Below are positions 5,145 through 25,610 of a stretch of DNA of 26,942 bases, piece after piece (position 1 is the first letter of the stretch; the number at the start of each line of letters is the position of its first letter). Made by a program: the position numbers and the translations under genes. Location: positions 231,066 to 258,007 of the forward strand of contig MU646405.1 in the NCBI GenBank assembly GCA_026770585.1, read 5' to 3'. A model generated the notes under the pieces. The model ran no database searches. It saw only the letters and a program-made list of their open reading frames with translations, and was not told where the DNA came from. The stretch is from Baffinella frigidus. Taxonomy: Eukaryota > Cryptophyceae > Cryptomonadales > Baffinellaceae.

Positions 5145-5308
5145 AAGCTCCCACGGCGTCTGGGACCTTTCGAGCATCTCCAGTAGCCCCCCCCCCAGAC
5201 GCCCGCAGGAAGCACCCCTGGCCTCCAACTTCGTAGCCAGCCCCCCCCCTCTGTGAGGAGCTTACCCCGATTACAGTCGACCTATTGGCCCGCGGCGGGC
5301 TCGTGGAC

Positions 5309-5430
5309 TACAAGGGTACCTCGCTCATAAGAAACCGCCTTCCCCTAGGAGCCTACAGTAGGCCCATGCCTAGGGCCCTATGGTGTTCCTAGGGGGGGGG
5401 GCGCTTTCTTATGAGCGAAGTACCCCTGTA
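5309..5430. mobile_element. family 2 inverted-repeat element, copy a
   Basis: The termini TACAAGGGTACCTCGCTCAT and ATGAGCGAAGTACCCCTGTA are inverted repeats around a CCTAGG-rich core and a G-run. Further complete copies are at 5841-5962 and 25502-25610. Confidence 0.8.
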
Positions 5431-5453
5431 GGTCCTGACAACCCCCCCCTAAC

Positions 5454-5618
5454 CTAATCGGAATCGTCGTCGTCGTTGTCGTAGAGACGCGCGGGGCCGC
5501 CCTCGCCAACGCCCGCAGCGCTCTTCTGGCTCGCTTGCCCCTGGGCCTGTTGAAAAGGTGTCAGCTGGTCATGCACCCGCCGGGCCCGCGCCAGGGACAA
5601 TGACAGCGTGCGAGAAGA
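5454..5618 (-). CDS. terminal exon with acidic C-terminal tail, unidentified gene
   Basis: This 55-codon minus-strand frame runs from a probable acceptor CCAGAG|TCT at 5619/5618 to TAG at 5456-5454. It contains LARARRVHDQLTPFQQAQGQ and ends GGPARLYDNDDDDSD. The acidic tail and the run of charged and polar residues look like a genuine C terminus. An alternative acceptor (CAACAG|GCC at 5547/5546) would shorten it without changing frame. A degenerate copy of its 5' part (reading LARVRRVHHHLTP) lies upstream in transcript sense at 5730-5790. No family was recognised. Confidence 0.5.
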   Translation of the reverse strand, partial: SSRTLSLSLARARRVHDQLTPFQQAQGQASQKSAAGVGEGGPARLYDNDDDDSD

Positions 5619-5729
5619 CTCTGGGGTTTTCTGACAGGCGTGCGGAGGTGCGTGCGAGAGGAATCTTGCTTGGCCGCAAGCCTTTCCAACAGCCCCAGGG
5701 CGGCCTTAAGACCCCGCCACGGACTTGGT

Positions 5730-5790
5730 GGCAAGGTGTGAGGTGGTGATGCACCCGCCGCACCCGCGCAAGGGGCGATGCGTGCGAGAG
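5730..5790 (-). pseudogene. partial upstream copy of the 5454-5618 exon
   Basis: The plus-strand sequence GGTGATGCACCCGCCGCACC and its flanks match 5557-5613, which encodes the first third of the terminal exon. It lies upstream in transcript sense and lacks the exon's 3' part. Confidence 0.6.
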
Positions 5791-5840
5791 GGCTCCGGTG
5801 TGAGGACCGATCCAGGGCTCATCCCCGGATACTGTCCATC

Positions 5841-5962
5841 TACGGGGGTACCTCGCTCATGAGAAAAAGCCCCCCCCCGGAGCCTACAGCAGCCCTATGC
5901 CTCGGGCCCTATGATGGTCCCTAGGGGGGGGGGCGGTTCCTTATGAGCGAGGTACCCCTGTG
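5841..5962. mobile_element. family 2 inverted-repeat element, copy b
   Basis: It begins TACGGGGGTACCTCGCTCAT and ends ATGAGCGAGGTACCCCTGTG. It has the same internal order as the copy at 5309. Confidence 0.8.
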
Positions 5963-5989
5963 ATGACCCGAGGCGGGCTCGTCCTGGAC

Positions 5990-6055
5990 CCGGTCCTCAA
6001 CACGGTCTTCACATCCGGGGGTTTCTGGTAGATGGTCCAGGAGATGGGCGCAGAG
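5990..6055 (-). CDS. possible internal exon of the unidentified minus-strand gene
   Basis: The minus strand reads ISWTIYQKPPDVKTVLRTG in an open frame between the terminal exon and the exon at 6471-6581. A donor could be AAGACC|GTGTTG. Boundaries are not fixed and the link to the neighbouring exons is only positional. Chance is a real alternative. Confidence 0.25.
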
Positions 6056-6345
6056 AGGTGTGCGCGAGAGGAATCGGGGGTTGCTGTATCAGAAGAATCC
6101 AATTTCGGAACACGCCAGAATCTGTGCCGCTTCTTAGGATTCCATCAGTGAAAATAAGGGTAGATATGACACTTTAGGCATAAAAAGATGGCTTTGAATA
6201 GCATGAACCAGGACAGATTCTGGTATATTCCGTGATGAGATCGGGGGTTCCTCTGAGAGAAGAATCGGGGGGTGCTCTCGCAGAGATATCAGGGGTGCCT
6301 CGCACAGATGGACGCAGAGGGGTGGACCTGGGGAAGCTGGGGGTT

Positions 6346-6440
6346 CTTTCAGAATCTGGCAACGAAAATTGCTAAACAATTCGTTCTTACTAGTAACATT
6401 AAATTATTTGTGTAGTAATTTTCGTTGGAGGTTCTGAAAG
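6346..6440. mobile_element. 95-bp hairpin MITE
   Basis: The ends CTTTCAGAATCTGGCAACGA and CGTTGGAGGTTCTGAAAG are imperfect inverted repeats. The loop (AATTCGTTCTTACTAGTAAC) is nearly the same as in the 140-bp element at 25832-25971, although the outer arms differ. Confidence 0.75.
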
Positions 6441-6470
6441 GGAATTGGGTTTCGCCGGATGAGGGCGGAC

Positions 6471-6581
6471 CTGGGGGGCGGGGGCGCCCCACGTGAACTT
6501 GAAATCGTTGACCCAGTCGCAGTACAGCTCCTCCCTGCCGACTCGCCGCGTGTTAGTGTCACAGAGGAAATCGCCCAACGC
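6471..6581 (-). CDS. 37-codon exon of the unidentified minus-strand gene
   Basis: Acceptor TTTAG|GCG at 6582/6581 and donor CCCCAG|GTCCGC at 6471/6470 bound 111 nt in phase 0. It reads ALGDFLCDTNTRRVGREELY, then CDWVNDFKFTWGAPAPQ: aromatic-rich with two Cys and clearly protein-like. The exon at 6866-6939 ends in phase 0 and joins in frame. Its first 35 nt or so are copied inside the intervening intron at 6682-6716. No family was recognised. Confidence 0.5.
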
Positions 6582-6599
6582 CTAAAGTAGCCCGCGGTG

Positions 6600-6890
6600 G
6601 GACGCGCTCCAGAATGCGAGGACAGACCCTAGGACGGGCCCGCCTCGGCCGGAGAGAAGTCATTTATGTAGACACTACCACGCCGCGTGTTAGCGTCACA
6701 GGGGAAATCGCCCAACTCTGGGGATGCAGCCCCGTGTAGGATGACCGACTGTGTAAAGTCACTCCGGTCATCCTACACGGGGCTTTATCCCCAGAACAAC
6801 GCCGAAAGTCTACATACATGACTTCTCTCCGCCCGAGGCGGGCCCGTCCTAGGGTCTGTCCTCACAGTCAGGAGCGCGTCGCACAAGGTG
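6600..6890. mobile_element. nested inverted-repeat element filling an intron
   Basis: The outer arms GAGGACAGACCCTAGGACGG and CCGTCCTAGGGTCTGTCCTC are inverted. Further inside, CTGGGGATGCAGCCCCGTGT pairs with ACACGGGGCTTTATCCCCAG. Between the left outer and inner arms lies a copy of the exon 6471-6581 start. On the minus strand the outer arm provides the donor ACT|GTGAGG of the upstream exon, so element and intron almost coincide. Confidence 0.7.
6682..6716 (-). pseudogene. partial upstream copy of exon 6471-6581
   Basis: The minus strand reads TTGGGCGATTTCCCCTGTGA and on through CACGCGGCG. It matches the exon from its fourth base with about two changes. The copy lies upstream in transcript sense and stops mid-exon. 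Confidence 0.75.
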
Positions 6891-6939
6891 GTTCTGAATG
6901 TGGCTATCCACTCGGTGGGCTTCGAGGGTTTCGGGACCC
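6866..6939 (-). CDS. 24-codon exon of the unidentified minus-strand gene
   Basis: Acceptor CTAG|GGG at 6940/6939 and donor ACT|GTGAGG at 6866/6865 bound 74 nt, phase 2 to 0. It reads VPKPSKPTEWIATFRTTL, then CDALLT. The donor sits at the edge of the inverted-repeat element at 6600-6890. Joining to exon 6471-6581 keeps the frame. No family is recognised and earlier exons were not found. Confidence 0.4.
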
Positions 6940-7203: not shown

Positions 7204-7326
7204 GGCTGTTGGGTCCTAAACCCTAAACCCTAAACTCTAAACCCTAAACCCTAAACCCTAAACCATAAACCATAAACCATAAACCATAAACCAAAACCCT
7301 ACACCCTAAACCCCTAAACTCTAAAC
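7204..7326 (+). repeat. CCCTAAA/ACCATAAA array
   Basis: Telomere-type CCTAAAC units grade into AACCATAA units, with CCCTAAA on the plus strand. It is not adjacent to any exon I can define. If it belongs to an intron, the gene would be on the plus strand. Confidence 0.7.
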
Positions 7327-7334
7327 GCAGTGCA

Positions 7335-7380
7335 CCGGTTCCACTTGTTCCGGATCCGTCGCTTGAGGTCCAGCACAGAT
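7335..7380 (-). pseudogene. 3'-part copy of NSE1 exon 6 (copy 2)
   Basis: The minus strand reads SVLDLKRRIRNKWNR, matching the end of the 8185-8285 exon with one substitution. It lies downstream in transcript sense and lacks the 5' part of the exon. Confidence 0.65.
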
Positions 7381-7512: not shown

Positions 7513-7689
7513 CTCCATTACGGGCGGACGGCCTCATTCCGGCGTCAACCTAATTCCGGCCGGGTGTGGCCGAACATCATTACGGGGACCTCCGTCCAGA
7601 CATGATTACAGGGATTACAGGGAACGCCGACCAGATCACGTGTAAATGGGCTGCGAACTTCGCACGACGGGCCCGGCCGGCAGGCTGGT

Positions 7690-7782
7690 GGAGGGTGGGA
7701 GAGGGAGAGAGAGGAGAGAGGAGAGAGAGGGGGGGGAGAGAGAGGAGAGAGAGAACAGAGAGAGAGGAGAGAGAGAGGAGCT
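7690..7782. repeat. GA-rich microsatellite
   Basis: An irregular GAGAGAGGAGAG run. It gives rise to long low-complexity ORFs on both strands that should not be called genes. Confidence 0.85.
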
Positions 7783-7809
7783 TCCCCTCGCCCCCCCGCG
7801 AGGGGGGGG

Positions 7810-7864
7810 CGTGACCTGTTCCACTTTTTGCGGATCCATCGCCTGGGGTCGAGGACGGATCGGA
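7810..7864 (-). pseudogene. 3'-part copy of NSE1 exon 6 (copy 1)
   Basis: The minus strand reads VLDPRRWIRKKWNR followed by the donor-like AACAG|GTCACG. It matches the 3' part and donor of exon 8185-8285. A third, shorter trace is at 7964-7990. Confidence 0.7.
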
Positions 7865-8184
7865 CCCTACACCCCAAGCCCTGAACCGCAAACCACAAAC
7901 TGCAAACCCTGTGCCCTGTGCCTAAAGACCCAAACCCTCAACGTTCTCAACCCTCAACCCCAACCTGTTCCATTTGTTCCGGCACGGATTTTCAGACTGT
8001 GAACACTGCACGAAGCCTCAGTGGATCTACTTTGGAGGCCTCACAACCTTGCATCATTAGGTGCCGTTAGAGCCTGGATACCCACACGGACGCACGGCAC
8101 GAGAGACACGGATGCCGAACATGATTACGGGGACCTCCGCCCACATCACGCTGTACATGGACAGCGAACGAGGGGGGGCGTTAC

Positions 8185-11100
8185 CTGTTCCACTTGTTGC
8201 GGATCCATCGCTTGAGGTCGAGGACGGATCGGATGCCGAGCGTCAAGCGTTCGATCTTCTTCCCACTCCGGTCCGTCTCCTCCATCTGCAGAGAGAGAAG
8301 GACCCTTTATTGAATACCCGCTTATTGAATATGAAGGGAGGTTTCGTTTTGTTGGGTAGTCGAGGGCGTTAGGTTATGAGGGTGGGCAGAGCGCGAGGTG
8401 GACGAGGTCGCCCTGAACCGCGCTAGGTCGGTCTTCCTCCTGCTCCTATTCGTCTCCTCCATCAGCCTCCCCGCGTCGTTTCAGGGTTGTTCTAGAACAT
8501 TCTAGAACATTCGATAAGACCGTCGTATGTCTAATAATGGATATTTCCAACAATATAACATTCTAGAGCATTCCAGAATGTTCGACAAGACAGTCGTATG
8601 TCATATAAAGATGCCGACAGTCAAGCACTCGATCTTCTTCCCGTTCCGATGCTTCTCCTCCATCTGCACCCAGCATGTCAACTTAGGATCAGTCAACCAG
8701 TAAGGCAGCGCTAGAGATCAAGCTAGCTGGGTCTTTCCGAACGATGTGTCGACCAACACAACTCTTGTCTCTGAGGCGGGCCCGTTTCTTCAGGCTCATA
8801 GACTTTTGTGTCACTCAACTCAACGCTCCACGGCCTCATTTAGGACCTGTATCGAGAGTAATAAAGAAGAAGCTGATGATGAAGCAACACAACTGCCTGA
8901 TTATCCCCCATCTGCCTCTCCGCGTCGTTTCAGGGTGTGGGGTTCTGTCAGGACTATCCGGGGATAGGCCCGCCCCGGCCCCCGTCTCCAGCCAATGGCT
9001 CCAACGTCTGCCGAGGCGGGCCTATCCCCGGATAGTCCGCACAGGCTCACGGTTTCGTACACCATCTTCGATGGCCGCGCCGAAAGGCGGTGAAGCGGTA
9101 GGCGCGCACGTGGCTGTTCAGGAGAAGGCGTCTAGCATCAGCGCCCACCACACCCCACTCAACGCGCAACGCGGTGGGGGGTTGGCACTTCGGATCCGAG
9201 CTTGTTGCCGAGGTAGTTTCGAAAGGCGTTAGCCTTTTATGGCTTTCTGGCCCCTCTTGCAGACAGGCTCGTGGTACAAGTGCTAAAATAGGTAAATCTA
9301 AGAGTCTTGTAACTCGTTAAATGGTAAACTTTGTCTCACAAAACAAACAAACAAACAAACAAACAAACAAACAAACAAACAAACAAACAAACAAACAAAC
9401 AAACAAACAAACAAACAAACAAACAGCGGGGCGAGAAAGCCCTGCATGGATAAAGCCGTGGGTTCCGAGATGGTGGGGAGTGACCAGCAGCCACTGATCG
9501 CCCACAAGCTTGTCGATGCATCGGATCGAGTCCTGCAACGCGCAAATCGAGCGTCAGCCACTTAGCAGCCACCGGGGGCTTCAAGGATACAGTCCATTTG
9601 AACGATTCGTACTAGAATCTTATCCTTTTGCATTGGATTATAACCGCATTTCCCCCAGATATCCGGGGGGAACGGGACTCGACCGCGATGCATCGGATCG
9701 AGTCCTCCAACGTGCGAAACGAGCGTCAGTATCCGTCTTCAGGCTCACGGTGCAATGCGCTCCTGACCTGGGATGGCCCCACCTCGGGCGGAAGTGAAAA
9801 CTCTCTCGCAGGACCTGCCTAGAGCGCAGCCACAACTATGTGTTTGTATCCATCACGCGCTTTGGTGGTAGCAATACAGGGGTTTGTTGGCATCAACGAC
9901 GGTCTGCGGTAGTATTACGCAAGCTCCTTGTTCCCGCTGACGCGCAGGCTTGATCCTCTCCACGCGACACATTCCAACCCGCAACTCGGGCAGCGCCACA
10001 GCAGCGTGAGAATGACAGGGTGTAGATGCAAGGGAGCAGCATGCAGGCGGCAGGGGGCAGAGATGCAAGGGAGCAGGAGAGATAGCGAGCAAGAGAGAGC
10101 GAGAGAGGGAGAGCGAGAGAGCGAGAGAGAGAGAGAGAGAGAGAATGAAGGTCACAGGGGCAGAGAATTAAGGGCGCAGACCTCTCCCCCGAGGCTGACC
10201 TCCTTATGCATCGAAATGCAAGGGAGCAGAAGAGAGAGCGAGAGAGCGAGAGAGCAAGAGAGCGAGAGAGAGCGCGCGCGAGAGAGAGAGAACGAAGGTC
10301 ACAGGGGCAGAGAATTTAGGGCGCGGACCTCTCCCCCGAGGTTGACCTCCTTGCCGAGGTTGATCGCCACGTTCTTCTCGATCGTCCCCCCGATCTTCTC
10401 CAGAATCACCGGCCGCGTCACCTACGCCGCAGGCCAATATGTGTGTTATGTTAAGGGTTGACCTTGCTATCTTAGCACCTATGTGTGTCATATTGAGGGT
10501 GGCCTTTGCTATCTTAGCGTCACCTACGCCGAACGCCAATTCAATCTCGGAACATGAACCAGTTTTATGCTATCTTACGCCTGGGGGTCGTGTCTAAAAT
10601 AGCATATCCACCCTTATGGAAGTCCTAAGATACGCATTCTCGATGCCCCCCCCGATCTTGTCCAGTACCACCGGCCTCGTCACCTACGCCGAGGGGCAAT
10701 TTAACGCGGACAGGGTCAATTCTGAACACCTTTTTGTGTTATATTAAGGGGGTGTTTTGCTATCTTAGCCTCGACGTTGCGTCACCTACGCCGCAGGCCA
10801 ATTTAACGCGGGACGAGATTCGATGTTCAGCACCTCTGTGTGTCATATTAAGGGTGGGCTTTACTATCTTAGCATCACCTACGCCCAAGGCCAATTTAAT
10901 CTCGGAACATGACAGAATCTGTGGGTAAATACACTCATCTTAGCCTTCATGTTATGCCTAAACTAGTTGACCCACCCTTATCTTCGGCGTTGGAAGCCTT
11001 AAGATCGCCACAGATTATGTTATCTTCTGGAATGATATTTAACGCGGAGACAGGTTCGATGTTGAACACCTTTTTGTGTTGTGTTAAGGGAGGAATTTGC

Positions 11101-13260
11101 TATCTTAGCCTCGACGTTGCTTTACCATGCCACAAAATTCACCCGTAAGATAGCAGAAAGGTGTTTTGAATCAAGTATGTTTCCATACGCGATTCAGCAC
11201 GCCCGGGGGTGGTCGCCATGCCACACGAGGCTACCCATGCGAACAGAATAAATGTCGATTGTAAACGTGTGTAGTAATTTTCAGATGAAAAGCAGCGACT
11301 TTACACAGGTCCGACCGCTCAGCGGGCGGAAACGTGATCATGTGCCCACAAAACTTTAAAAGTCCGTTTTATTCTGTTCGCCTCGGTAGCCTCGTGTGGT
11401 GCGGTCTGTGCGTGCGAGGTGGTTGCCACGCGGTTTTCATCTCGGAAGATAACTGAATCAGTTCCTTTTCAATAGGAGGTTGAATAGGATAAATTAGCTA
11501 GGGCATAGTAAACTTAATGAGGCGTCCTAATTAAATGAGAAACGCTAATTAGGGAACTGGTTCAGTTATCTTTCGAGATGAGTTTGGTTGCCTTGCGGTC
11601 TGTCATTCCAGATTGTGCCAGCTAAGCTGCCTGCAGACAAAGCGTGCGGCGCAAGGCAAACCAGTACCATCCAACCCCACCAGGGCCACACCGTGTGAAA
11701 AGAGGTGGGGGGGAAATGAGCAACCGAGAGCCCAACGCATGTTGACTGGTCCGACGATTTTCTGGAGGAGCGTTTGCGGTAATTGTTGGCCGCTTTTTGA
11801 TTTCCAGTTATCGAGATTTCGAGAGTTTCTTTGTACCAGGAATGTCCGTGTCAAACGTTTTACGACCTCCACAATCAATTGAAAGGTCTCAAAATCTCGA
11901 AAACTGAAAAATCGGCCAACAATTACCGCAAACGCTCTACTACGCATGCCCGGATTAGTTACCGTCCAGGCCCAGTTGACACAACATTCGACCATTTTCA
12001 GTCGCCCGCTCCCGGCAGCCGCTAGCCGGGACAACCCGCTACCTCCAGGGAAGCGAATGCAAGGTCACTTGTTCGCCGAGTCTTTGCAGTACTCCTAGCT
12101 CTGCCTCAGTTAATTTCTGCGCCTCATTAAATACATTTAGACAAGGACTCCGTACACACGCTCCAGTACAAAGAGCATCTAAATGTATTTAATCAGGAGC
12201 CCAGATTAACTGAGGCATAGCTAGCACTGTTCCGTCGCATATCTGCACTGAACATGAGCTTTCCGCGGTCGTGCCACAGGATTTACTAAATTTAGGAAAC
12301 CGTGGGGGGGGTGGAGCAACCAGGTGTTCGACGATCTTCTTGAAGAGACCGAGCTCTGCGTCGCTCAGCGCTGCCGAGGCTTTCACGTGCAAGATCTCCG
12401 CTTCCTTCTGCCTGCGGGAACCGTGTAAACTTGAGTGGACGTGAGGGGGGATATTTTGCGGGGGGGTGCTGGGTTTGTGGCTGGTGGGGGTGGTGCATAT
12501 CGGGCCTGAGGGGAGACAACGCGTCGCAGCGCCTCCTCCTCCCGCAGCAACTGCTGTGCTTGGTGGGAGGCGTCTTGTCTGGACGATGCGTGGTGCAGCA
12601 CAGCAAGGCACCGGGTGCTCCGATTGCGGGAATGTCGGTGGGTGCGGGGGGGGGGCGCAAGGGGGAGCTGGGTGGGCCGGTACTTGGTGTCGGCAGACCC
12701 CGACAGGTCGCAGCTCTCCAGACCCCTGATTCGAGCAGGGTAGCTCAGGCGCTGGAACCTGCTGGGCAGCAGCCCACCCACCGCTATATCCCAGGCTGGC
12801 AGGAAGGGAGGCGTTCAGGGCAATGTGGCTGGGGCGGCGGGCGCGAGCACCAGAACTTTTGTTTGGTGGCCTCCATCGTCGCTTCCTTGACAATCGCCCA
12901 GTTGATACCGTCCGGACCGATCTCTTTGTTTACTACGTTGAAGAACTTCCTGCCACAATCAGTCCCAGATCCTCAGCGCCCGACAGGGGGGTTGGGCAGG
13001 GGGCGCCCGACAGCCGCTCCCCGACACCACACACTCACGGCACGGCACGGCGTCTCTGGGGGGGAGCATCGTGGCTTCATCGGGTGGCAGCGGGCGGGCG
13101 CGTACTTGAGTCCCTTGTCATTGGCGGGAACGTCCGTCTGATCCAAGCCAGGGAGCTTTTGTGCCAAGCTCTGGATGGTCCTGAGCGTCTCGTCCTCCTC
13201 CATGGCGCCCCGATGCATCATGACCTGCAGCGCCGCGCGGTGAACGTCGCAGTACGCCAT
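8185..13260 (-). CDS. NSE1: NSE1-like SMC5/6 complex subunit, six exons recovered, RING end missing
   Basis: NSE1 pairs with NSE3 and NSE4 in the SMC5/6 complex, which acts in DNA repair; it has winged-helix domains and a C-terminal RING. Exons on the minus strand: 13260-13106 (ATG start, MAYCDVHRAALQVMMHRGAM), 12949-12851, 12411-12321, 10421-10347, 9532-9485 and 8285-8185. All junctions keep phase and the joined frame is about 189 codons, close to the pre-RING length of known NSE1. Family-like blocks are NKEIGPDGINWAI, SDAELGLFKKIVEHL, IDKLVGDQWLL and LTLGIRSVLDLKRWIRNKW; the last two fit the second winged helix. After the donor AACAG|GTAACG at 8185 no convincing zinc-binding exon was found. 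Several introns hold MITEs and broken exon copies. The gene may be complete further left, or decayed. Confidence 0.65.
8611..8670 (-). pseudogene. 5'-part copy of NSE1 exon 6
   Basis: The minus strand reads QMEEKHRNGKKIECLTVGI against QMEETDRSGKKIERLTLGI in the exon at 8285-8185, then diverges. It lies upstream in transcript sense and keeps only the 5' half. Confidence 0.75.
8760..8871 (-). repeat. dispersed repeat, copy 2 (inverted relative to 565-680)
   Basis: Reads CTCTTGTCTCTGAGGCGGGC through ATCGAGAGTAATAAAGAAGA, the reverse complement of the copy at 565-680 with scattered changes. Confidence 0.75.
8951..9039. mobile_element. MITE with GGACTATCCGGGGATAGG arms
   Basis: GGACTATCCGGGGATAGGCC at the left pairs with GGCCTATCCCCGGATAGTCC at the right, in perfect inversion. 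A copy with a single arm lies at 21095-21150, sharing the internal GACGTTGGAGCCA. Confidence 0.8.
9339..9425. repeat. (AAAC)n microsatellite
   Basis: About 21 perfect AAAC units. Minus-strand ORFs reading VCLFVCLF are its translation and not genes. Confidence 0.95.
9687..9729 (-). pseudogene. 5'-part copy of NSE1 exon 5
   Basis: About 43 bp match 9515-9557, covering the acceptor region and first 18 nt of exon 9532-9485. It lies upstream in transcript sense. The acceptor is changed from TTGCAG to TTGGAG. Confidence 0.75.
10063..10350. repeat. tandem duplication including the NSE1 exon 4 donor end
   Basis: Two units of about 150 bp (10063-10203 and about 10216-10353) share ATGCAAGGGAGCAG, a GA-rich run, AAGGTCACAGGGGCAGAGAA and CCTCTCCCCCGAGG. 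The second unit ends in the functional 3' end of exon 10421-10347. The first carries only the last few exon bases and the donor, downstream in transcript sense. Confidence 0.7.
10430..11160. repeat. decayed tandem array carrying repeated NSE1 exon 4 acceptor regions
   Basis: Units contain GTGTTATATTAAGGG or a variant, GCTATCTTAGC and TCACCTACGCC(GC)AGGCCAATTT. The CACCTACGCC block, which is the exon 4 acceptor on the minus strand, recurs at about 10420, 10520, 10681, 10782 and 10876. The unit at 10639-10701 also carries the first 45 nt or so of the exon, reading VTRPVVLDKIGGGIE. Confidence 0.7.
11221..11399. mobile_element. 179-bp MITE with CCACACGAGGCTACC arms
   Basis: The left end CCACACGAGGCTACC then GCGAACAGAATAAA pairs with TTTATTCTGTTCGC then GGTAGCCTCGTGTGG. 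No ORF is inside. It lies in the long NSE1 intron between exons 3 and 4. Confidence 0.85.
11438..11580. mobile_element. 143-bp MITE with CATCTCG arms
   Basis: CATCTCGGAAGATAACTGAA pairs with TTCAGTTATCTTTCGAGATG, with a further internal TCAGTTCC/GGAACTGG match. Both flanks carry GGTTGCC...GCGGT. It lies in the NSE1 exon 3-4 intron. Confidence 0.85.
11767..11940. mobile_element. MITE with GAGCGTTTGCGGTAATTG arms
   Basis: GAGCGTTTGCGGTAATTGTT and its complement AACAATTACCGCAAACGCTC form long arms that continue through a GATTTCGAGA/TCTCGAAAAC region. The ORFs crossing it are palindrome artefacts. Confidence 0.85.
12095..12224. mobile_element. 130-bp MITE with CTAGCTCTGCCTCAGTTAAT arms
   Basis: CTAGCTCTGCCTCAGTTAAT at the left pairs with ATTAACTGAGGCATAGCTAG at the right. 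An inner ATTAAATACATTTAG/CTAAATGTATTTAAT pair is also present. Confidence 0.85.
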
Positions 13261-14299
13261 CTCCGCTGCTGTGTGCGCCCGCGGAGTCGCCCCAGCTGCC
13301 CCGTTGTTCCTCGTTCGCAGCGGCAAAGTGGCGGGAAAACTGCTCCAAGAGGTCGGGGAAAGACGGAGCTGGGGGTCCTCGTTCTCGTTCTGGGTCAGAT
13401 TTGGCGGTCTCGTTCGGAACGTGGAGCACGACCGAGCGACAGAACGATGGGGCAGTAGACACAGTCACGGCGCGGGACCTCGTTCGCCGCGCTCCTGGGA
13501 AAGTCACAAGTCAATTTGTCAACTTACTAGGATGCACCGCTTGAGCCATTTGAGGGCATTTTACTAATAATTTTACTTGAAAGGACACTTACAATGATTG
13601 TACGGGAAAGGACACGTACAATGATTTTAGCTCGTAGTAATGTTCGTACGGCCTCCTCAGGACACTGGAATAAAGACGCAGAGGAGCCGACCGGAGTCCC
13701 AAGAACCTCTCGCAACACGATGCTGCGGACCAGAGCCGTGCAACGCGGCGTGATGCGGGTGTGTACCGCACCCTGCACCCGCCACACCCTGCGACGGTTC
13801 CGCGGTGGCCGCGTGTGGCGCCGGGGCCTTCGCGTGCGCCGCTCCTTGCTGCCTTAGTGGAGGGACGTAAGGGATGCGTCCGCTCGCATTGGGTCACTAT
13901 CTTGGGGCCGATCTGGCTCTGGGGGGGGGATTCGCGGGCGCGCGTTGCGTGGGCGCCCTCACGGCCGTGTTTCGGGAGCCAGGGCGTGCGCTTCTCTGTG
14001 TGCGGCCAGCGCGGGCAAGCGAGGGGTCGTGGATACGGCCACGAAATCTTTGGTCTCGCTTGCATATCCGCCCCGAAAATTGCATATCCACACAAGGCGC
14101 AGTTCGTCGAGCTCGAAAATGCCTGCCTGTGTGGGCCCAGCACCTACGAGGGAATGTACCGAAGACGCTTCTTGCCAGATCCGGTTCGGCGGTAGGTCGC
14201 AGTTGTCCCAGGATCCGTTTTGACGATAGGTCGAACTTGTCCCTGATGATACCTGGATTTGGTACCTGGAATTAACCTGGTGCACTCGCGACGTGGCAG
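13261..14299. other. intergenic region between NSE1 and the dehydrogenase
   Basis: It holds the upstream region of the divergent NSE1 gene. Near 13590-13625 is a tandem GAAAGGACAC(T/G)TACAATGAT. A dispersed GC-rich repeat lies at 13893-14030. ORFs are present but none shows recognisable protein character. The first exon(s) of the dehydrogenase, encoding about 65 N-terminal residues, must lie here or upstream and were not identified. Confidence 0.45.
13893..14030. repeat. dispersed GC-rich repeat, copy with uninterrupted GGCC site
   Basis: The sequence from GGGGCCGATCTGGCTCTGGG to CTCTGTGTGCGGCCAGCGC matches 25775-26030, where the same repeat is split by a 140-bp MITE. A third partial copy is at about 26085-26130. 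Confidence 0.75.
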
Positions 14300-17200
14300 G
14301 CGATCGCCAGAGCGGCGACCCGCACCCCGACGCAGCGCACCTACATCACGCCGGCTTACAACCTGGCCAAGCGCATCATGCCCAAGATCTCGCCGACGGA
14401 GGAGGCCGCTCTCAACTCTGGCACGATCTGCTTCGACCGGGACCTCTTCAGCGGCGACCCGACGACCAAGTCGCTCCTCGCGCGCTACAAGATCTCGCTC
14501 TCGGCCGAAGAGCAGTCGTTCATCGACAACGAGACCCACGTGCTCTGCGAGATGCTCGACAACAACCAGATCGATGAGGACCAGAACCTCCCGCCCGCGG
14601 TCTGGAAGTTCATCCGCGAGAAGAAGTTCATGGGCCTCGTCATCCCCAAGGCCTACGGCGGCATGGGTAAACACCAAACCCTGAACCCTACACCCTACAC
14701 CCTGCACCCTCAAACCTCAAAACCTCAAACCTCAAACCTCAACCCTCAACCCTCCCTCGACACTCGACCCTCAACCCTCAACACCCTCAACACTCAACAC
14801 TCAACACTCAACCCTAACCCAGGTTTCTCCGCCACCCTACACCCTACAACCTAAACCTCAAACCTCGAACGTCAACACTCATCACTCAACCCGCAACGCA
14901 GGCTTCTCCGCGCACGCGCACTCCGTGGTCGTGGAGAAGGTCGCGGGGCGCAACACCTGCGCGGCCGTCACGGTCTGACCTTCACCCTACACTCTACACC
15001 CCACACCCCACACCCCACACTCTACACCCTAGACCATTAACCCTACACCCGGCACCCGGCACCCGGCACCACACACCCTACACCCTAGGCCATCAACCCT
15101 GAACCCTGACCCCCCCCAGGTGATGGTGCCGAACTCCCTCGGGCCGGGCGAGCTGCTCTACCACCACGGGACCCCCGAGCAGAAGGACCACTACCTCCCG
15201 CGCCTCGCGCACGGCATCGACATCCCGTGCTTCGGGCTCACGGGCGCCGCGTCGGGCTCTGACGCGGCCAGCATGCGCGACGAGGGCGTCGTGTGCATGC
15301 AGGCAACCCTAAACCCTTAACCCTAGACCCCGAGTGTACTTTCAGGCAACCCTAAACCCTGAACCCCCAAGCCTACCCTAAACCCTAAACCCTACCTAAC
15401 CCTACCTAACCCTACCTGCCCCTACCCAACCCTAAATCCGTAACCCTAAACCCTAAACCCTAAACCCTCAATCCTAAACCCTGAACCCTCAACACAACCG
15501 TGCAGGACGGCGTGCTGGGCATGCGCGTGAACTTCTCGAAGCGCTACATCACCCTCGCACCCGTCGCGACGTGCGTCGGTAAAACCCCAACCTCTGACCC
15601 ACAACCCTAACCTCTGACCCCTCAACCCCCTACACCCTAAACCGTCAATCTCTGAACCTTCAACCCCCTTAACCTCCTTAACCCTAAACCCTCAACCCTA
15701 AACCGCCAAACCCGTAAAACCCAAACCCCCGCAACCCTCAACCCTCAACCCTAACCCCCACCACCCCCCAACCAGGCCTCGCGTTCAAGCTCCGCGACCC
15801 CGAGAAGCTGCTCACGATCGGCAAGGAGGGCATCACCGTCGCGCTCCTCCCCACGGAGGCAAACCCTAAACCCTGAACCCTCATTCCTCAATCCTAATCC
15901 CTAAACCTCAAACCCTTAACCAGGCCAACCAGTTCGCGCCCAACGGCCTCCCCGGCCTCATCACCGGTCAAACCCCTATTCCCCAAACCCTAAACCCTAC
16001 ACCCTACACCTTAAAGCGGGTTTAGTGAACCTAAACCCTGAACCCTAAACTCCAAACCCTAAACCCTAAACCCTAAACCTTAAACCCTAATCCCTCATCC
16101 CCAACCCAGGCCCCCGGCACAACCCGCTCGGCACGGCGTTCATGAACGGCACGGTGGTGGGGACCGACGTGTTCATCCCCATGACGTGCGTCATCGGCGG
16201 CGAGAAGCAGACGGGCTTCGGGTGGAACATGCTCATGGAGTGCCTCGGGGAGGGCCGCGGTAGAGCCTAAACCCCAAACCCAAACCCTAAACCTGACCCC
16301 TAAACCCTAAACCCTACACACCGAACCCCACACTCTAAACCCTACACCCTACACCCTTAACCTCAGACCCTGAACCCTGAACCAGGCATCTCGCTCCCCT
16401 CGCTCGGCTCTGCGCAGGCCAAGGTTCTAACCCCCAAACCGAAACCCCAACCCCTACCCTAAACCCTTACCCCCACACCTTGAATCCTAAACCTAAACCC
16501 TAAACCCTAAACCCTAAACCTAAACCCTTAACCAACCCGAAACCCTAACCCCCCCAAACCCCCTTATCCCGAAACCGTAACGCAGGTGGCGACGTTGGCG
16601 GTGGGCGGGTACGCGCGCATCCGCAAGCAGTTCAAGGTTCCCATCGCGAGCATGGAGGGCGTCCAGGTACTCTCTCTCTCTATCTCTCTCCCTCCATCTC
16701 GTGCTTCCTTCTCCCCGAACCTGTCCCCATCGCGAGCATGGAGGGCGTCCAAGTACTTGACCTGAGAATCCCCCCCCACACACTCTACACCCTACATCCC
16801 AAACCCTAAACCCTAAACCCTAAACCCTAAAATACTCGCTCGCCGTTTCGGTCCTGCAGGGTGTGAATGCTCCCAACGTAGGCGGCCACCTTGCCCTTCC
16901 GTGCTTGTCCCCGAAACTCCCTCCCGGCATGAACCTTGCACTCACCCGAGGCCCTGCCAGCACTCGCCCTGGGTTTCCTCGGCCTTTCTAGCTGATCAAT
17001 CATGGGCTCTCCCCCCACTGAGGTTTCTGCGGTGGTTGGTGGCCCAGGTACAGCCTCGGTGGGGGTGCACAAACATGGCGACCGTGTGGGTCTCTCACTG
17101 AGCATGTGGTGACCAACGTGTTGTCGCCCCCCCCCCCTTCTCAGGAGAAGCTGGCGAACATCGGGATGAACACGTTCCAGATCACTGCCGGGCGCAACCT

Positions 17201-20200
17201 CTTCAACGCGATCCTCGCGGATAAGGAGAAGCCCCCCGTCCTCTCCGCCATCATGAAGGTTACACCCTAAACCCTAAAACCTAAACCCCAAAACCTAGAC
17301 CCTAAACCCTCAAACGTGTCTTCTTCTGCTTCTTTTTCTTCATATTACTCGCAGCAAGGTCCTAAACCCTGACACCTAAACCCTAAACCCGGACCCCTGA
17401 ACCTTACACCCTACACCCTACACCAGCTGATGTGCACGGAGAAGGGGCGGGTGTGCACCAACGAGGCCATGGACGTGGTCGGCGGCGCGGGCATCTCCAA
17501 GGGCAAGATGAACTTCGCCGCGACGTGAAACCCTACACCCCCAAACCCTAAACCCTAAACCCTTAACCCTAACTCTGGCGGACAACCCTGATCCCTAATC
17601 CCTAATCCCTAATCCCTAATCCCTAATCCCTAATCCCTAATCCCTAATCCCTAAACCCCCTTCACCATAACTCTGAACCCTAAACCATAAACCATAAACC
17701 ATAAACCATAAACCTCAACCTGAAACCCCACTTCCTGAATCCTCAAAAAATCTAAACCCTAAACCCAACACCCTACAGGGCGTACGTCGCGACGCCGATC
17801 GCCATCACGGTCGAGGGCGCCAACGCGCTCACGTGAGCACCCTACACCCTACACCATAAACCCTAACCCATGAACCTTAAACCATAAACCTCGACTCCAA
17901 ATCCGACATCGCCACCACGGTCGAGGGAGCCAACGCGCTCGCGTGAACCCCAAACCCCAGACCCTAATCCCTACCCGAGCACCCTACATCCTCGAACCTC
18001 AATCCTACCCCCTCAACCCTTACCCATAAACCACAACACTAAACCCCAAACCCCAAACCCTGAACCCTAAAACCTAAAACCTAAAACCTAAAACCTAAAA
18101 CCTGACCTAAAGACCATACACATACACCATACACCACATGCTGCAGACCATAACCCGAATCCCGAATCCCGAAACCAGGCGCTCGCTGATCGTGTTCGGG
18201 CAGGGCCTCACGCGCTCGCACCCCCACCTCCTCAAGCTCATGCAGGCAACCCCCAAACCCAAAACCGACTGTTCTAGAAGCTTTTGGGGGTCGTACCGAT
18301 GGGGGTCGTACCGAATGGTCTAGAAGCTTTACGGGGTCGTACCGAATGTTCTAGAAGCTTTGAGGGGCTCGCGAATCGCGTTCGGGCAGAGCCTCACGCG
18401 CCCGCACCCCCACCCCGTCAAACTCATGCAGGCCAACCCCCGAAACCCTAAAACCCTGTACCCTAAAACCATAAACCATAAATCATAAATAATTAGATCG
18501 ACGATAAACAATATACAATGATAAACAATGAACCTGAAACCCTTAACCCGCACCAGGCGATCCAGCACGGCGACGACATGCCCACGTTCAACAAGGAGCT
18601 CACCAACATCATCAAGCACGCCTTCACCAACCTCGGGTAAAACCCCACAACCCAATCCCTAAAACCCAAACCCTTAACCCTAAACTCTAAAACTCTAAAC
18701 TCTAAACTCTAGACATTCAACCCTCAACCCTAATCCCAAACCCTTAACCCTAAACACCATACCCCAAATCCCAAACCTCCAACCCCTACTAACCCCAAAC
18801 CCCAAACCAAGCGCGGCGTGACGAACCCACACCCCAAAGCCTCACCCCCACACCCAACACCAGGCGCGGGGTGACGCGCGGCCTCGCCGTGCAGATCCAG
18901 TCCAAGGGCAGTGACATCGCGGGGTACTACTCCTGAACCCTAAACCTCACACCCCACACCCTGCCTCACACCCTAACCCCCACACCTCCCACCCTAAACC
19001 CTACCCCACACCCTAAACCCCAAACCTTGCACCTTAAACCCTACCCCACACTCTAAACCCCAAACCTTAAACCCTAAACACTACCCCACACCCTAAACCC
19101 CAAACCTTACACCCTCAACCGTACACCCTACACTCTGAACAATAAACAACACACGATCAACTAAACCCTCAACGCTCAAGCAGGTACTATGAGAACAACC
19201 TCTCGCGGCTGGCTGCCAACTTCGCCTTCTGCTCCGACGTTGGCCTCACCATGGGTAAAACCCCTCAACCATAAAACATAACCCATAAAAATATAAAACA
19301 TAGAACCCTAATCTCTAAACACTCAGCCCTGCACCCTGAACCCTGAACCCTGAACCCTAAACCCTGGACCCTGAACCCTGAACACCAAACGCTACACCCC
19401 AAACACTAAACACTCAACACTACACACTCATCCCCAACCCCTAATCCCTAATCTCCAAGCAATAACGCCTGACCCCTAACGCAGGCGGCGCCATCAAGAC
19501 GGGCGAGTTCATCTCGGGGCGCTACGCGGACATCCTCTCCAACCTCTACATGGTTCAACCCGAAACCCTCAACACTAGACCCTAGACCCGAAACCCGAAT
19601 CCCGCTAAACCCGCTAAAACCGAAACCCGCTTAACCCTAAACTGTGAACCACCACGCAAGAGTGTAGGGCAGACCTGGGAAAACAAGCCAGTTCACACGG
19701 AATTTGTCACAACTTTCCGAAATTTCGATTTTTCTGTGGGAAGAATGTCCACTTATGAACTTAAGAAATAGTAGAATTCTACTATTTCTCCTGTGGGTCA
19801 CTCTGCCCTACACTCTTGCGTGGCAGGGGTACGCGTGCCTGTGGTTCTACGAGCAGAACAAGCACGTCAAGGGCCTGGACAAGCTTCTTGATCTCGCCAT
19901 GGTACTCCCTAAACCCTAAACCTAACCCCTAAACCTTTGGTACGTAATACCTGAACCCTAAACCTTTGGTACGTAATACCTGAACCCTAAACCTAAACTC
20001 TGAACCCAAAACTCTGCACTCTAAAAACGAAACCTGAAACCCGAAACATTTTTACTCTGGAGACACTGATTCTGACGCTGGGGCCTGAACCCCAAATCTC
20101 AAACCCTAAAGCCCGAACCCTACACCAGGCGGACGTGTGCAAGAACATCCAGGAGGCCTTCTTCGGCCTCTTCACCAACTTCCCGGTAAACCCTTAACCC

Positions 20201-21061
20201 CAAACCCCAAACCCCACACCCCCACACCCCCACACCCCCACACCCCCACATCCCCACATCCCCACACCCCCACACACCAAACCCTAAATCCCAACCCCCA
20301 CACCCCACACCCCAAACCCCAAACCCTAACCTCCAAACCTCCAAACCTTACACCAGGTCACCCTCGTGGGCCCCGTGATGCGCGTGTACACGCTCCCGCG
20401 AAACCACTGACCCCAAACCCTAACCCCCAACCCGTGCACCAGGTCCCCCTGATGGGCCCGGTGATGCGTGTGGCCACGTTCCCGCGCGGCCGCGAGTACC
20501 ACGCTGCCTCGGACAGCCTCCGCCGCCAGGTGCCGACCCCCCTCTTCTCTTCCTATGCCAACGCTCTCGCCTGCCTACCTGCGTACAGAGTTCCGCGCGC
20601 CCCTTCCCCGCGCTCCCGCCCCCCGACTGACTCGCTGGCTGGCTGGCTGGCGGCACGAACACCGAACACCGAACACCGAAACCCACAACTCTGAATCCGC
20701 AACTCTCAACATTTGACCCCAACAGGTGGCGAACCTGATCACGACGCCGACGGAGGTGCGGGCGCTCCTCACGGACGGCGTCTTCGTGTCCGAGGACCCT
20801 TTGGACCGCATCAACCAGATCGTGCGCGCGCTCCCGCTCGCCCACGAGGCGGACATGTACCTCGCGGCGTGCCGCAAGGAGAAGCGCCAGCCGTCTGCCG
20901 CCGAGCAGGCGGTCATCAACCAGGCCGAGGAGCTCCGCGAGCTCATCATCCAGGTGGACGTCTTCGACACCCTCGCGGGCAAGAACCACCGCGGCGAGGA
21001 CATGAAGGCCACGTGGTCCGTCGAGCCGTTCGAGGGCTCCAAGGCCCTGGCTGCGCACTAA
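14300..21061 (+). CDS. fadE-like: FadE-type acyl-CoA dehydrogenase, 21 exons, N terminus missing
   Basis: The family removes two hydrogens from acyl-CoA to FAD, the first step of beta-oxidation. Exons: 14300-14666, 14902-14972, 15120-15302, 15506-15578, 15776-15858, 15924-15966, 16110-16259, 16386-16423, 16586-16666, 17145-17258, 17427-17524, 17779-17832, 18179-18245, 18557-18636, 18864-18923, 19184-19254, 19485-19552, 19827-19901, 20129-20185, 20443-20529, 20726-21061 (TAA). Phases match at every junction; the total is about 751 codons, against 814 in E. coli FadE. Diagnostic blocks: [51 protein letters not shown] (flavin/substrate region), [15 protein letters not shown] and [13 protein letters not shown], whose Glu matches the catalytic-base position; the DUF1974-type C-terminal part follows. 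Donors after exons 3, 5 and 13 are GC. Twenty of 21 exons start with G after AG. The first exon may begin a few codons earlier. About 65 N-terminal residues are not visible. Confidence 0.9.
14818..14833 (+). pseudogene. short upstream mimic of dehydrogenase exon 2 start
   Basis: CCCAGGTTTCTCCGCC resembles the acceptor and start of exon 2 (GCAGGCTTCTCCGCG). It is only about 13 bp long, so it is weak on its own and is listed because it follows the pattern of the longer copies. Confidence 0.35.
16724..16757 (+). pseudogene. downstream copy of the 3' end and donor of exon 9
   Basis: CCCCATCGCGAGCATGGAGG followed by GCGTCCAAGTACT repeats the end of exon 16586-16666. The donor has changed from CAG|GTAC to CAA|GTAC. 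It lies in the following intron. Confidence 0.85.
17903..17942 (+). pseudogene. downstream copy of the 3' half and donor of exon 12
   Basis: It repeats the second half of exon 17779-17832 (ACGGTCGAGG and CCAACGCGCTC) with about five changes and ends GC|GTGAAC. It lies about 70 bp after the real donor. Confidence 0.85.
18269..18366 (+). repeat. about 40-bp tandem repeat between exon 13 and its copy
   Basis: Three TTCTAGAAGCTTT units (one reads GTCTAGAAG) alternate with GGGGTCGTACCGA. The array is not telomere-like and lies exactly between exon 13 and its duplicate. Confidence 0.85.
18366..18431 (+). pseudogene. almost full-length duplicate of exon 13
   Basis: It matches exon 18179-18245 over nearly its whole length, reading [20 protein letters not shown] against [21 protein letters not shown]. 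It ends CAG|GCCAAC, so the GC donor is preserved. The frame is open and a weak TTTGAG|G acceptor would keep phase. An alternative exon cannot be excluded, but the substitutions at conserved positions suggest decay. Confidence 0.75.
18805..18824 (+). pseudogene. upstream copy of the acceptor and start of exon 15
   Basis: ACCAAGCGCGGCGTGACG repeats ACCAGGCGCGGGGTGACG at 18860-18877. The acceptor AG|G has become AAG|C. Confidence 0.65.
19652..19823. mobile_element. 172-bp MITE inside intron 17, abutting the acceptor of exon 18
   Basis: CCACGCAAGAGTGTAGGGCA and TGCCCTACACTCTTGCGTGG are perfect inverted ends, with an internal AGTAGAATTCTACT palindrome. Only CAG separates the right end from exon 19827-19901, so the element supplies the pyrimidine-rich tract before the splice site. 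Confidence 0.9.
20351..20400 (+). pseudogene. upstream 5'-part copy of exon 20
   Basis: Fifty bp including the CACCAG acceptor match 20437-20486 at a constant offset of 86 bp with roughly eight differences. It would read [15 protein letters not shown] against [15 protein letters not shown]. It then runs into AAACCACTGA with no donor, so it is not a usable exon. Confidence 0.85.
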
Positions 21062-25500: not shown

Positions 25501-25501
25501 T

Positions 25502-25610
25502 TACAGGGGTACCTCGCTCATAAGAAAACGCCCCCCCCCTAGGGCCCTACAGTGGGGCCCTATGGGGTCCCTAGGGGGAAGCGTTTTCTTATGAGCGAGG
25601 TACCCCTGTA
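25502..25610. mobile_element. family 2 element, copy c
   Basis: TACAGGGGTACCTCGCTCAT and ATGAGCGAGGTACCCCTGTA are perfect 20-bp inverted ends. This is the best-preserved copy. Confidence 0.85.

Follow-up and report, generated by a model that had tools for sequence, protein, structure and literature searches.

Results

Exon copies in the introns of a dehydrogenase gene

The 26,942-nucleotide stretch of Baffinella frigidus DNA analysed here (contig MU646405.1, positions 231,066 to 258,007; hereafter the window) carries an acyl-CoA dehydrogenase gene and, on the opposite strand, a partially modelled NSE1-like gene (Table 1). Introns of both genes contain partial copies of the exons that border them, and the same holds for two genes elsewhere in the genome. 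The copies appear to be the remains of short tandem duplications that crossed an exon-intron border.

The dehydrogenase contains the domains ACDH_C and Acyl-CoA_dh, and its closest named relatives are cryptophyte proteins (Rhodomonas salina, 78%; Hanusia phi, 72%). P0001, a protein whose name marks it as the product of a transcript, shares 86% identity with it and matches 20 of its 21 exons, the exception being the 38-base exon 8. An intron-poor paralogue of the gene lies in the same genome (C276:114059-118106; four introns, one of them private to it; 85.8% nucleotide identity). The paralogue encodes P0001 at 762 of 765 residues, the three differing residues being those of the window gene's C-terminus; residues 757-762 of P0001 include the C-terminal residues of the window gene. 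P0001 is likely a chimeric transcript assembly, hinting that the window gene is transcribed. A genome search with P0001 gave 17 matches, all within these two loci. By comparison with the paralogue, the segment at 13720-13758 is likely an additional first coding exon of the window gene. The NSE1 label is weak, the SMC_Nse1 family scoring 21.5 bits with a cut-off of 23.3.

All 21 dehydrogenase exons were compared with all 20 introns lying between them, giving 420 pairs of which 40 are adjacent. The top seven pairs are all adjacent (hypergeometric p 4e-8), with scores of 25-106, whereas no non-adjacent pair scores above 24, although the copies of exons 2, 3 and 15 stand out only when the splice flanks are included. 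The six dehydrogenase copies reported in the initial annotation (14818, 16724, 17903, 18366, 18805 and 20351) are all present, and a seventh, of exon 3, had been overlooked. Its NSE1 copies at 8611, 9687 and 10639 upstream and at 7810 and 7335 downstream were likewise recovered, together with an extra upstream copy at 8462-8428, which brings exon 6 to four copies. The downstream copy of exon 4 exists too, at 10205-10182; position 10140, where it had been placed, belongs to the duplicated intron part that accompanies it.

Copies in four genes obey a one-sided rule

The search was extended within a genome set of 382,457,362 bases in 1,364 contigs by a blind sample of 20 stretches, one at a fixed position on each of contigs 1-20; 16 consisted entirely of N and four were readable in whole or in part. 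Two of these hold genes. Locus L017 carries a P4-type ATPase gene, identified through its homologue P0121, with which its 25 exons were set. Locus L015, on another contig than the window, carries a bestrophin gene whose 12 tested exons were set by the annotated B. frigidus protein P0241; the exons used are identical to L015 apart from alignment overruns, so that the genome would be that of B. frigidus or a very close relative (Cryptophyceae). No clear gene was found in the other two, L005 and L013, by a first codon scan that was weak also on L015, which does hold a gene. Gene-model scores were 94 and 96 for L005 (half of the stretch per strand), compared with 517 for L017 and 217 for L015 over twice the L005 length, the other strands of the latter two giving 198 and 175.

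Copy thresholds were set by shuffled exons, and an exon end was scored as kept with a tolerance of three bases; the 11 window copies were classed by eye with the same tolerance. The last L015 exon and the stretch 2-58 (79% similar to P0241 and truncated where the locus ends) were left out of the L015 count. Four copies seen by eye, at 7963 in the NSE1-like gene and at 7715, 4345 and 6801 in L017, stand outside the above-threshold set; the first of them was included in the flank test described below, which covered 39 copies (15 and 24 in two sets). The splice-dinucleotide test also covered 39 copies.

Across the 64 exons of the four genes 38 copies exceed the threshold, all direct and none inverted. 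Fourteen lie upstream and keep only the 5' end, 17 lie downstream and keep only the 3' end, three are whole and four keep neither end. Thus none of the 31 one-ended copies carries the wrong end for its side (Fisher p 3.8e-9), and the one-sided rule proposed in the initial annotation stands when copy side is tabulated against exon part. The dehydrogenase and NSE1-like genes (27 exons) contribute 11 copies, five upstream 5', five downstream 3' and one nearly whole. The P4-ATPase gene contributes 14, seven upstream 5'-only, five downstream 3'-only and two further upstream copies whose alignment starts only at exon base 7. The bestrophin gene contributes 13, seven downstream 3'-only, two upstream 5'-only, two downstream whole and two with neither end; at least one copy accompanies seven of its 12 exons, one of these at threshold. 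The best exon-intron matches are again adjacent (the top nine in the P4-ATPase gene and the top seven in the bestrophin gene, where the eighth is a fused copy of exons 10 and 11). In three genes the introns that bear copies exceed the others in length (p 0.008, 0.0001 and 0.03), although long introns also offer more room.

This rule is forced by geometry. If the segment duplicated head to tail begins in the preceding intron and stops within the exon, the exon start and its acceptor must land upstream of the intact exon; if it begins within the exon and stops in the following intron, the exon end and its donor must land downstream. The rule therefore argues for tandem duplication, says nothing on whether exons are targeted, and requires no selection on the splice site. 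A neutral filter, offered in the initial annotation as an alternative, was in effect right, since geometry alone forces the rule. Local direct-repeat pairs number 41 in L005 compared with 35 in L015 and 33 in L017, which weakly suggests a genome-wide process without exon targeting, the gene content of L005 being uncertain. In one L005 pair, two 127-base copies are 97% identical and lie 659 bases from each other.

Table 1. Genes, exons and exon copies in the window (positions of the window; strand as read)
Feature	Position	Strand	Remarks
Acyl-CoA dehydrogenase gene body	14300..21061	+	21 exons, open frame through every junction
Dehydrogenase exons 1-7	14300-14666, 14902-14972, 15120-15302, 15506-15578, 15776-15858, 15924-15966, 16110-16259	+	
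Dehydrogenase exons 8-14	16386-16423, 16586-16666, 17145-17258, 17427-17524, 17779-17832, 18179-18245, 18557-18636	+	
Dehydrogenase exons 15-21	18864-18923, 19184-19254, 19485-19552, 19827-19901, 20129-20185, 20443-20529, 20726-21061	+	
Likely first coding exon (MLRTRAVQRGVMR)	13720..13758	+	39 bases; length, phase and donor as in paralogue exon 1
Exon 2 copy, upstream	14816..14835	+	acceptor and 5' part; score 25; reads cccag|GTTTC
Exon 3 copy, downstream	15334..15355	+	3' part and GC donor
Exon 9 copy, downstream	16723..16757	+	3' part and donor, CAG to CAA
Exon 12 copy, downstream	17908..17950	+	3' part and donor
Exon 13 copy, downstream	18363..18441	+	nearly entire exon
Exon 15 copy, upstream	18802..18823	+	acceptor AG to AA
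Exon 20 copy, upstream	20351..20400	+	intact acceptor and 5' part
NSE1-like gene, partial model	8185..13260	-	six exons; end of exon 5 unsure
NSE1-like exons	13260-13106, 12949-12857, 12411-12321, 10421-10329, 9532-9425, 8285-8185	-	
NSE1-like exon 4 copy, upstream	10637..10683	-	acceptor and 5' part
NSE1-like exon 4 copy, downstream	10182..10205	-	distance 147 bases
NSE1-like exon 5 copy, upstream	9686..9704	-	
NSE1-like exon 6 copy, upstream	8610..8663	-	
NSE1-like exon 6 second copy, upstream	8428..8462	-	acceptor AG to TG
NSE1-like exon 6 copy, downstream	7816..7864	-	donor intact
NSE1-like exon 6 second copy, downstream	7338..7380	-	
Exon-start copy, putative gene	6681..6716	-	upstream; 34/36 identical; inside inverted-repeat element

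Duplicated intron beside some of the copies

The copies are best read, at a probability of roughly 85%, as products of short tandem duplications that occurred locally, each broken once within an exon and once within an intron. The initial annotation had proposed this origin, and it agrees with the uniformly direct orientation, the adjacency of the best matches, the lack of wrong-ended copies and the continuation of some repeats into the intron. Such continuation is clearest at the downstream copy of NSE1-like exon 4, where homology continues into the intron over all 59 bases tested, with 45 points and rank 1 of 26; the flanks of three further NSE1-like copies also rank first, over 16-25 bases. 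At L017 exon 20 the unit comprises about 138 aligned bases with 118 identities (7525-7663), and the flank of the L015 exon 2 copy ranks first over 46 bases. In the array at L015 exon 9, intron sequence 7210-7288 recurs at 7808-7886 with a score of 123, compared with at most 59 in 44 control introns.

Several points weigh against this reading. The flank ranked first in only four of 15 copies in the first set and three of 24 in the second, one of the latter over 6 bases only, leaving 32 of the 39 flank tests uninformative or negative. The test is weak in the many introns made of telomere-like repeat, but it also fails for some copies flanked by complex sequence, and the copy at 16723 ends 5 bases past its donor beside ordinary sequence; the absence of flank there could reflect later insertions or a templated patch. 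Four of the 38 copies have neither exon end within 3 bases, although two of them keep the acceptor (2393 and 3002) and the other two, both in the bestrophin gene, score at or one point above the threshold. Finally, the splice site in use is one that we infer, except in the bestrophin gene, where the predicted protein P0241 fits the inner junctions.

The missing flanks would be explained by templated insertion during break repair of the polymerase-theta type, by which a break in an intron is patched with the end of a neighbouring exon; most copies have no detectable duplicated intron flank, and the bases separating a copy from its exon can be unrelated to either, as at 18280-18362. Templated insertions, however, are expected to arise in either orientation and to carry any part of an exon, its ends or its interior, whereas the present copies include no inverted and no contrary case, and units that include intron sequence occur in three genes. 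Such repair is an improbable source of the copies as a whole.

Splice sites and boundary repeats

The splice dinucleotide (AG, GT or GC) is kept in 31 of the 39 copies. The initial annotation had described most copies as mutated at the splice site and had made decay of the outer site a step in intron growth; neither view agrees with this count. The inner site is likely preferred, since it alone can be matched with the opposite end of a proper exon. On L015, all 12 junctions of P0241 are solved uniquely and all fall at inner splice sites, the annotation itself being a prediction.

The retained splice sites also bear on the Rogers model, under which the copies would be remnants of intron birth, an exonic AGGT having been duplicated in tandem with the new intron lying between its copies. 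The absence of 18 of the 21 dehydrogenase introns from the paralogue is in keeping with frequent intron birth, and over 61 introns prefix repeats exceed shuffles overall (88 vs 76.3, p 0.002), two introns opening with a repeat of the 6 or 8 bases that begin the following exon (p 0.0015). A copy that contains a splice site, however, implies an intron that pre-existed, boundary repeats in the dehydrogenase gene are barely above chance (62 vs 57.2, p 0.045) and suffix repeats are not above chance (p 0.56). By the criterion that an intron begin like the next exon, only those two of the 61 introns reach 6 bases, and the model is very unlikely to account for the copies. The two are L015 intron 1 (255-1050), with 8 bases, and window intron 15 (18924-19183), with 6; both resemble a target-site duplication. 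As a general feature, target-site-like boundary repeats were rejected on the dehydrogenase introns and the 61 introns, from which these two stand out.

Copies drift while exons are conserved

With the paralogue as outgroup, the 27 differences between the seven dehydrogenase copies and their exons fall into 20 on the copy side, four on the exon side and three that are ambiguous; 15 of the 20 copy-side changes are nonsynonymous, compared with one of the four on the exon side. In the exon 13 copy nine of 67 bases differ and all nine changed on the copy side, and the exon 20 copy retains three bases that are found in the paralogue and not in the present exon. The dehydrogenase copies thus drift without protein constraint and the exons are conserved. 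Most copies in the four genes differ from their own exon by 3-20%, and two short ones are identical.

This pattern makes it highly unlikely that the copies function as alternative or mutually exclusive exons. The retained dinucleotides would suit such a role, and a gene-finding script called as exons 18390-18431 and 20357-20383, which are parts of two dehydrogenase copies; against it, 35 of the 38 copies are not whole exons, the copy-side changes comprise 15 nonsynonymous and only five synonymous ones, and the annotated bestrophin P0241 uses no L015 copy. Merged haplotypes or polymerase stutter could in principle leave such copies in the assembly of a repeat-rich genome, but an artefact of this kind is hardly credible for copies that are mostly 3-20% diverged with changes mainly on the copy side, number up to four for one exon (NSE1-like exon 6) and recur in unrelated genes.

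Age of the introns

Three of 21 dehydrogenase introns are shared with the paralogue (the first, by position, and introns 3 and 10), 18 of the 20 after the first being absent from it. Intron 3 measures 203 bases in the window gene and 105 in the paralogue, and the exon 3 copy, the only one of the seven that lies in a common intron, is absent from the matching paralogue intron. The homology of intron 3 rests on position and alike ends, its whole-sequence rank among window introns being 3 (intron 10: rank 5). No exon copies were found in the four paralogue introns (best score 23 vs 16 in the reverse-strand control; others 10-22 vs 10-21).

Both gain in the window gene and loss in the paralogue are possible for the 18 introns. 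Loss via cDNA is possible because all ten 3' introns are missing from the paralogue. In a protein tree P0001 falls outside a group of the window protein, P0002 and P0003, at a support of only 84/85. Both P0002 and P0006 resemble one uninterrupted open frame that is read out of a first intron, which would favour gain; that reading would require a separate loss of introns 3 and 10. Many fossil-bearing introns may, somewhat more weakly, themselves be young.

A fossil in the bestrophin gene bears on the same question. At L015 8843-8920 the final 32 bases of exon 10 run directly into the complete 46-base exon 11, the present intron being absent; 70 of the 78 bases are identical. The simplest reading is that this segment was duplicated before the exon 10/11 intron arose; an RNA-derived copy or precise intron loss are possible alternatives for this one case. 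A second junction-spanning match in L015, at 1213-1262, reaches 10 bases past the junction, and the same test gave no fused-exon copies in the other three genes. That introns record both birth and growth, most of those in some genes having been born after gene duplication and then swelled, with fossils preserving earlier gene states, is a tentative proposal to which slightly less than even odds would be given.

Other features of the introns and the window

Many introns (window 14667-20725, L015 and L017) consist of degenerate CCCTAAA-like, plant-type telomere repeat whose C-rich strand is the sense strand, and A+C reaches at least 0.75 in 14 of 20 dehydrogenase introns, compared with 0.54 in exons. 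The pure repeat contains neither AG nor GT on this strand and therefore brings in no cryptic splice sites. In mammals, telomeric sequence is reported to be inserted at breaks (PMC7215372, PMC2246262). Dehydrogenase intron 17 contains a hairpin-forming element (19652-19825, by eye) whose right end touches the acceptor.

The gene annotated at 5454-6939 is putative. Its exon-start copy reported at 6682 is present and, with tttag|GCG taken as the acceptor, would begin at exon base 3, whereas the item at 5730 proved to be an intron-only copy, 5801-5733 matching 5627-5555 and stopping 8 bases before the exon. The exon-start copy sits between the 77-base arms (92% alike) of an inverted repeat, 6597-6673 and 6808-6884, and the arrangement across 6597-6884 resembles the capture of a gene fragment by an element. 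A family of palindromic elements, marked by GGGTACCTCGCTCAT(A/G)AG close to the ends, occurs at 5308-5431 and 5842-5961 and, by eye, at 25501-25610 and downstream of the paralogue gene of locus L023.

Discussion

Under the tandem-duplication reading, a short head-to-tail duplication would span an exon-intron border, the spliceosome would keep using the exon-proximal site of each pair, and the outer copy and the duplicated intron stretch would become intron, which would lengthen. The underlying mutation would most likely be replication slippage or break repair acting genome-wide and not aimed at exons, with the side rule following from geometry and a preserved reading frame.

Intron lengthening is usually ascribed to transposons and simple repeats. 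Here the intron retains a datable mark of a plain tandem duplication that crossed a splice junction, and exon fossils can help to separate intron gain from loss without a second species. At a reported 534.5 Mb, the draft genome of strain CCMP2293 is 6.1 times as large as the genome of Guillardia theta (PMC9756366, in whose main text the word 'intron' was not found), and intron growth by exon-crossing duplications may help to explain this size. The density of the copies, their record of drift and a fossil possibly older than an intron make a genome-wide study worthwhile.

Among known systems, introner elements share with the present case only that bulk intron gain is plausible, 18 introns being absent from the paralogue. 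Introner-like target-site duplication was not apparent as a general boundary repeat in the dehydrogenase introns or in 61 introns, and the introns share only the CCCTAAA-like repeat as far as seen, no search having been aimed at other shared elements. The terms cryptophyte and telomere are absent from the main text of the introner paper of Gozashti 2022 (PMC9860276). In Amorphochlora amoebiformis, bulk lineage-specific introns with AG|GN-like sites are thought by the authors not to derive from introners, and half of those examined contain simple repeats; exon copies in introns, as found here, are unmentioned in the portions consulted of that paper (PMC12730881). A description of exon fossils accumulating in introns was not found in titles and abstract openings, a coverage that leaves preprints and most subscription journals outside.

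Tandem duplication is named as the sole intron-gain mechanism shown in vivo in the sections consulted of a review (PMC3443670). With the Rogers and Hellsten model treated there the present case has tandem duplication as a source of intron sequence in common; unlike in that model, most copies here include the splice site of a pre-existing intron, one breakpoint lying outside the exon. The potato gene described in PMC4974935 is nearer, a direct tandem duplication across an intron-exon border by which splice signals were inherited. As here, the duplication copied the 3' side of an intron and the 5' side of an exon in direct orientation. In potato, however, the spliced transcript includes the outer copy and the gene gains an intron, whereas here the outer copy is likely skipped and the old intron grows, in dozens of events in four genes. 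Intron gain by tandem duplication is the closest known kind, and the number of copies and the preserved record look new.

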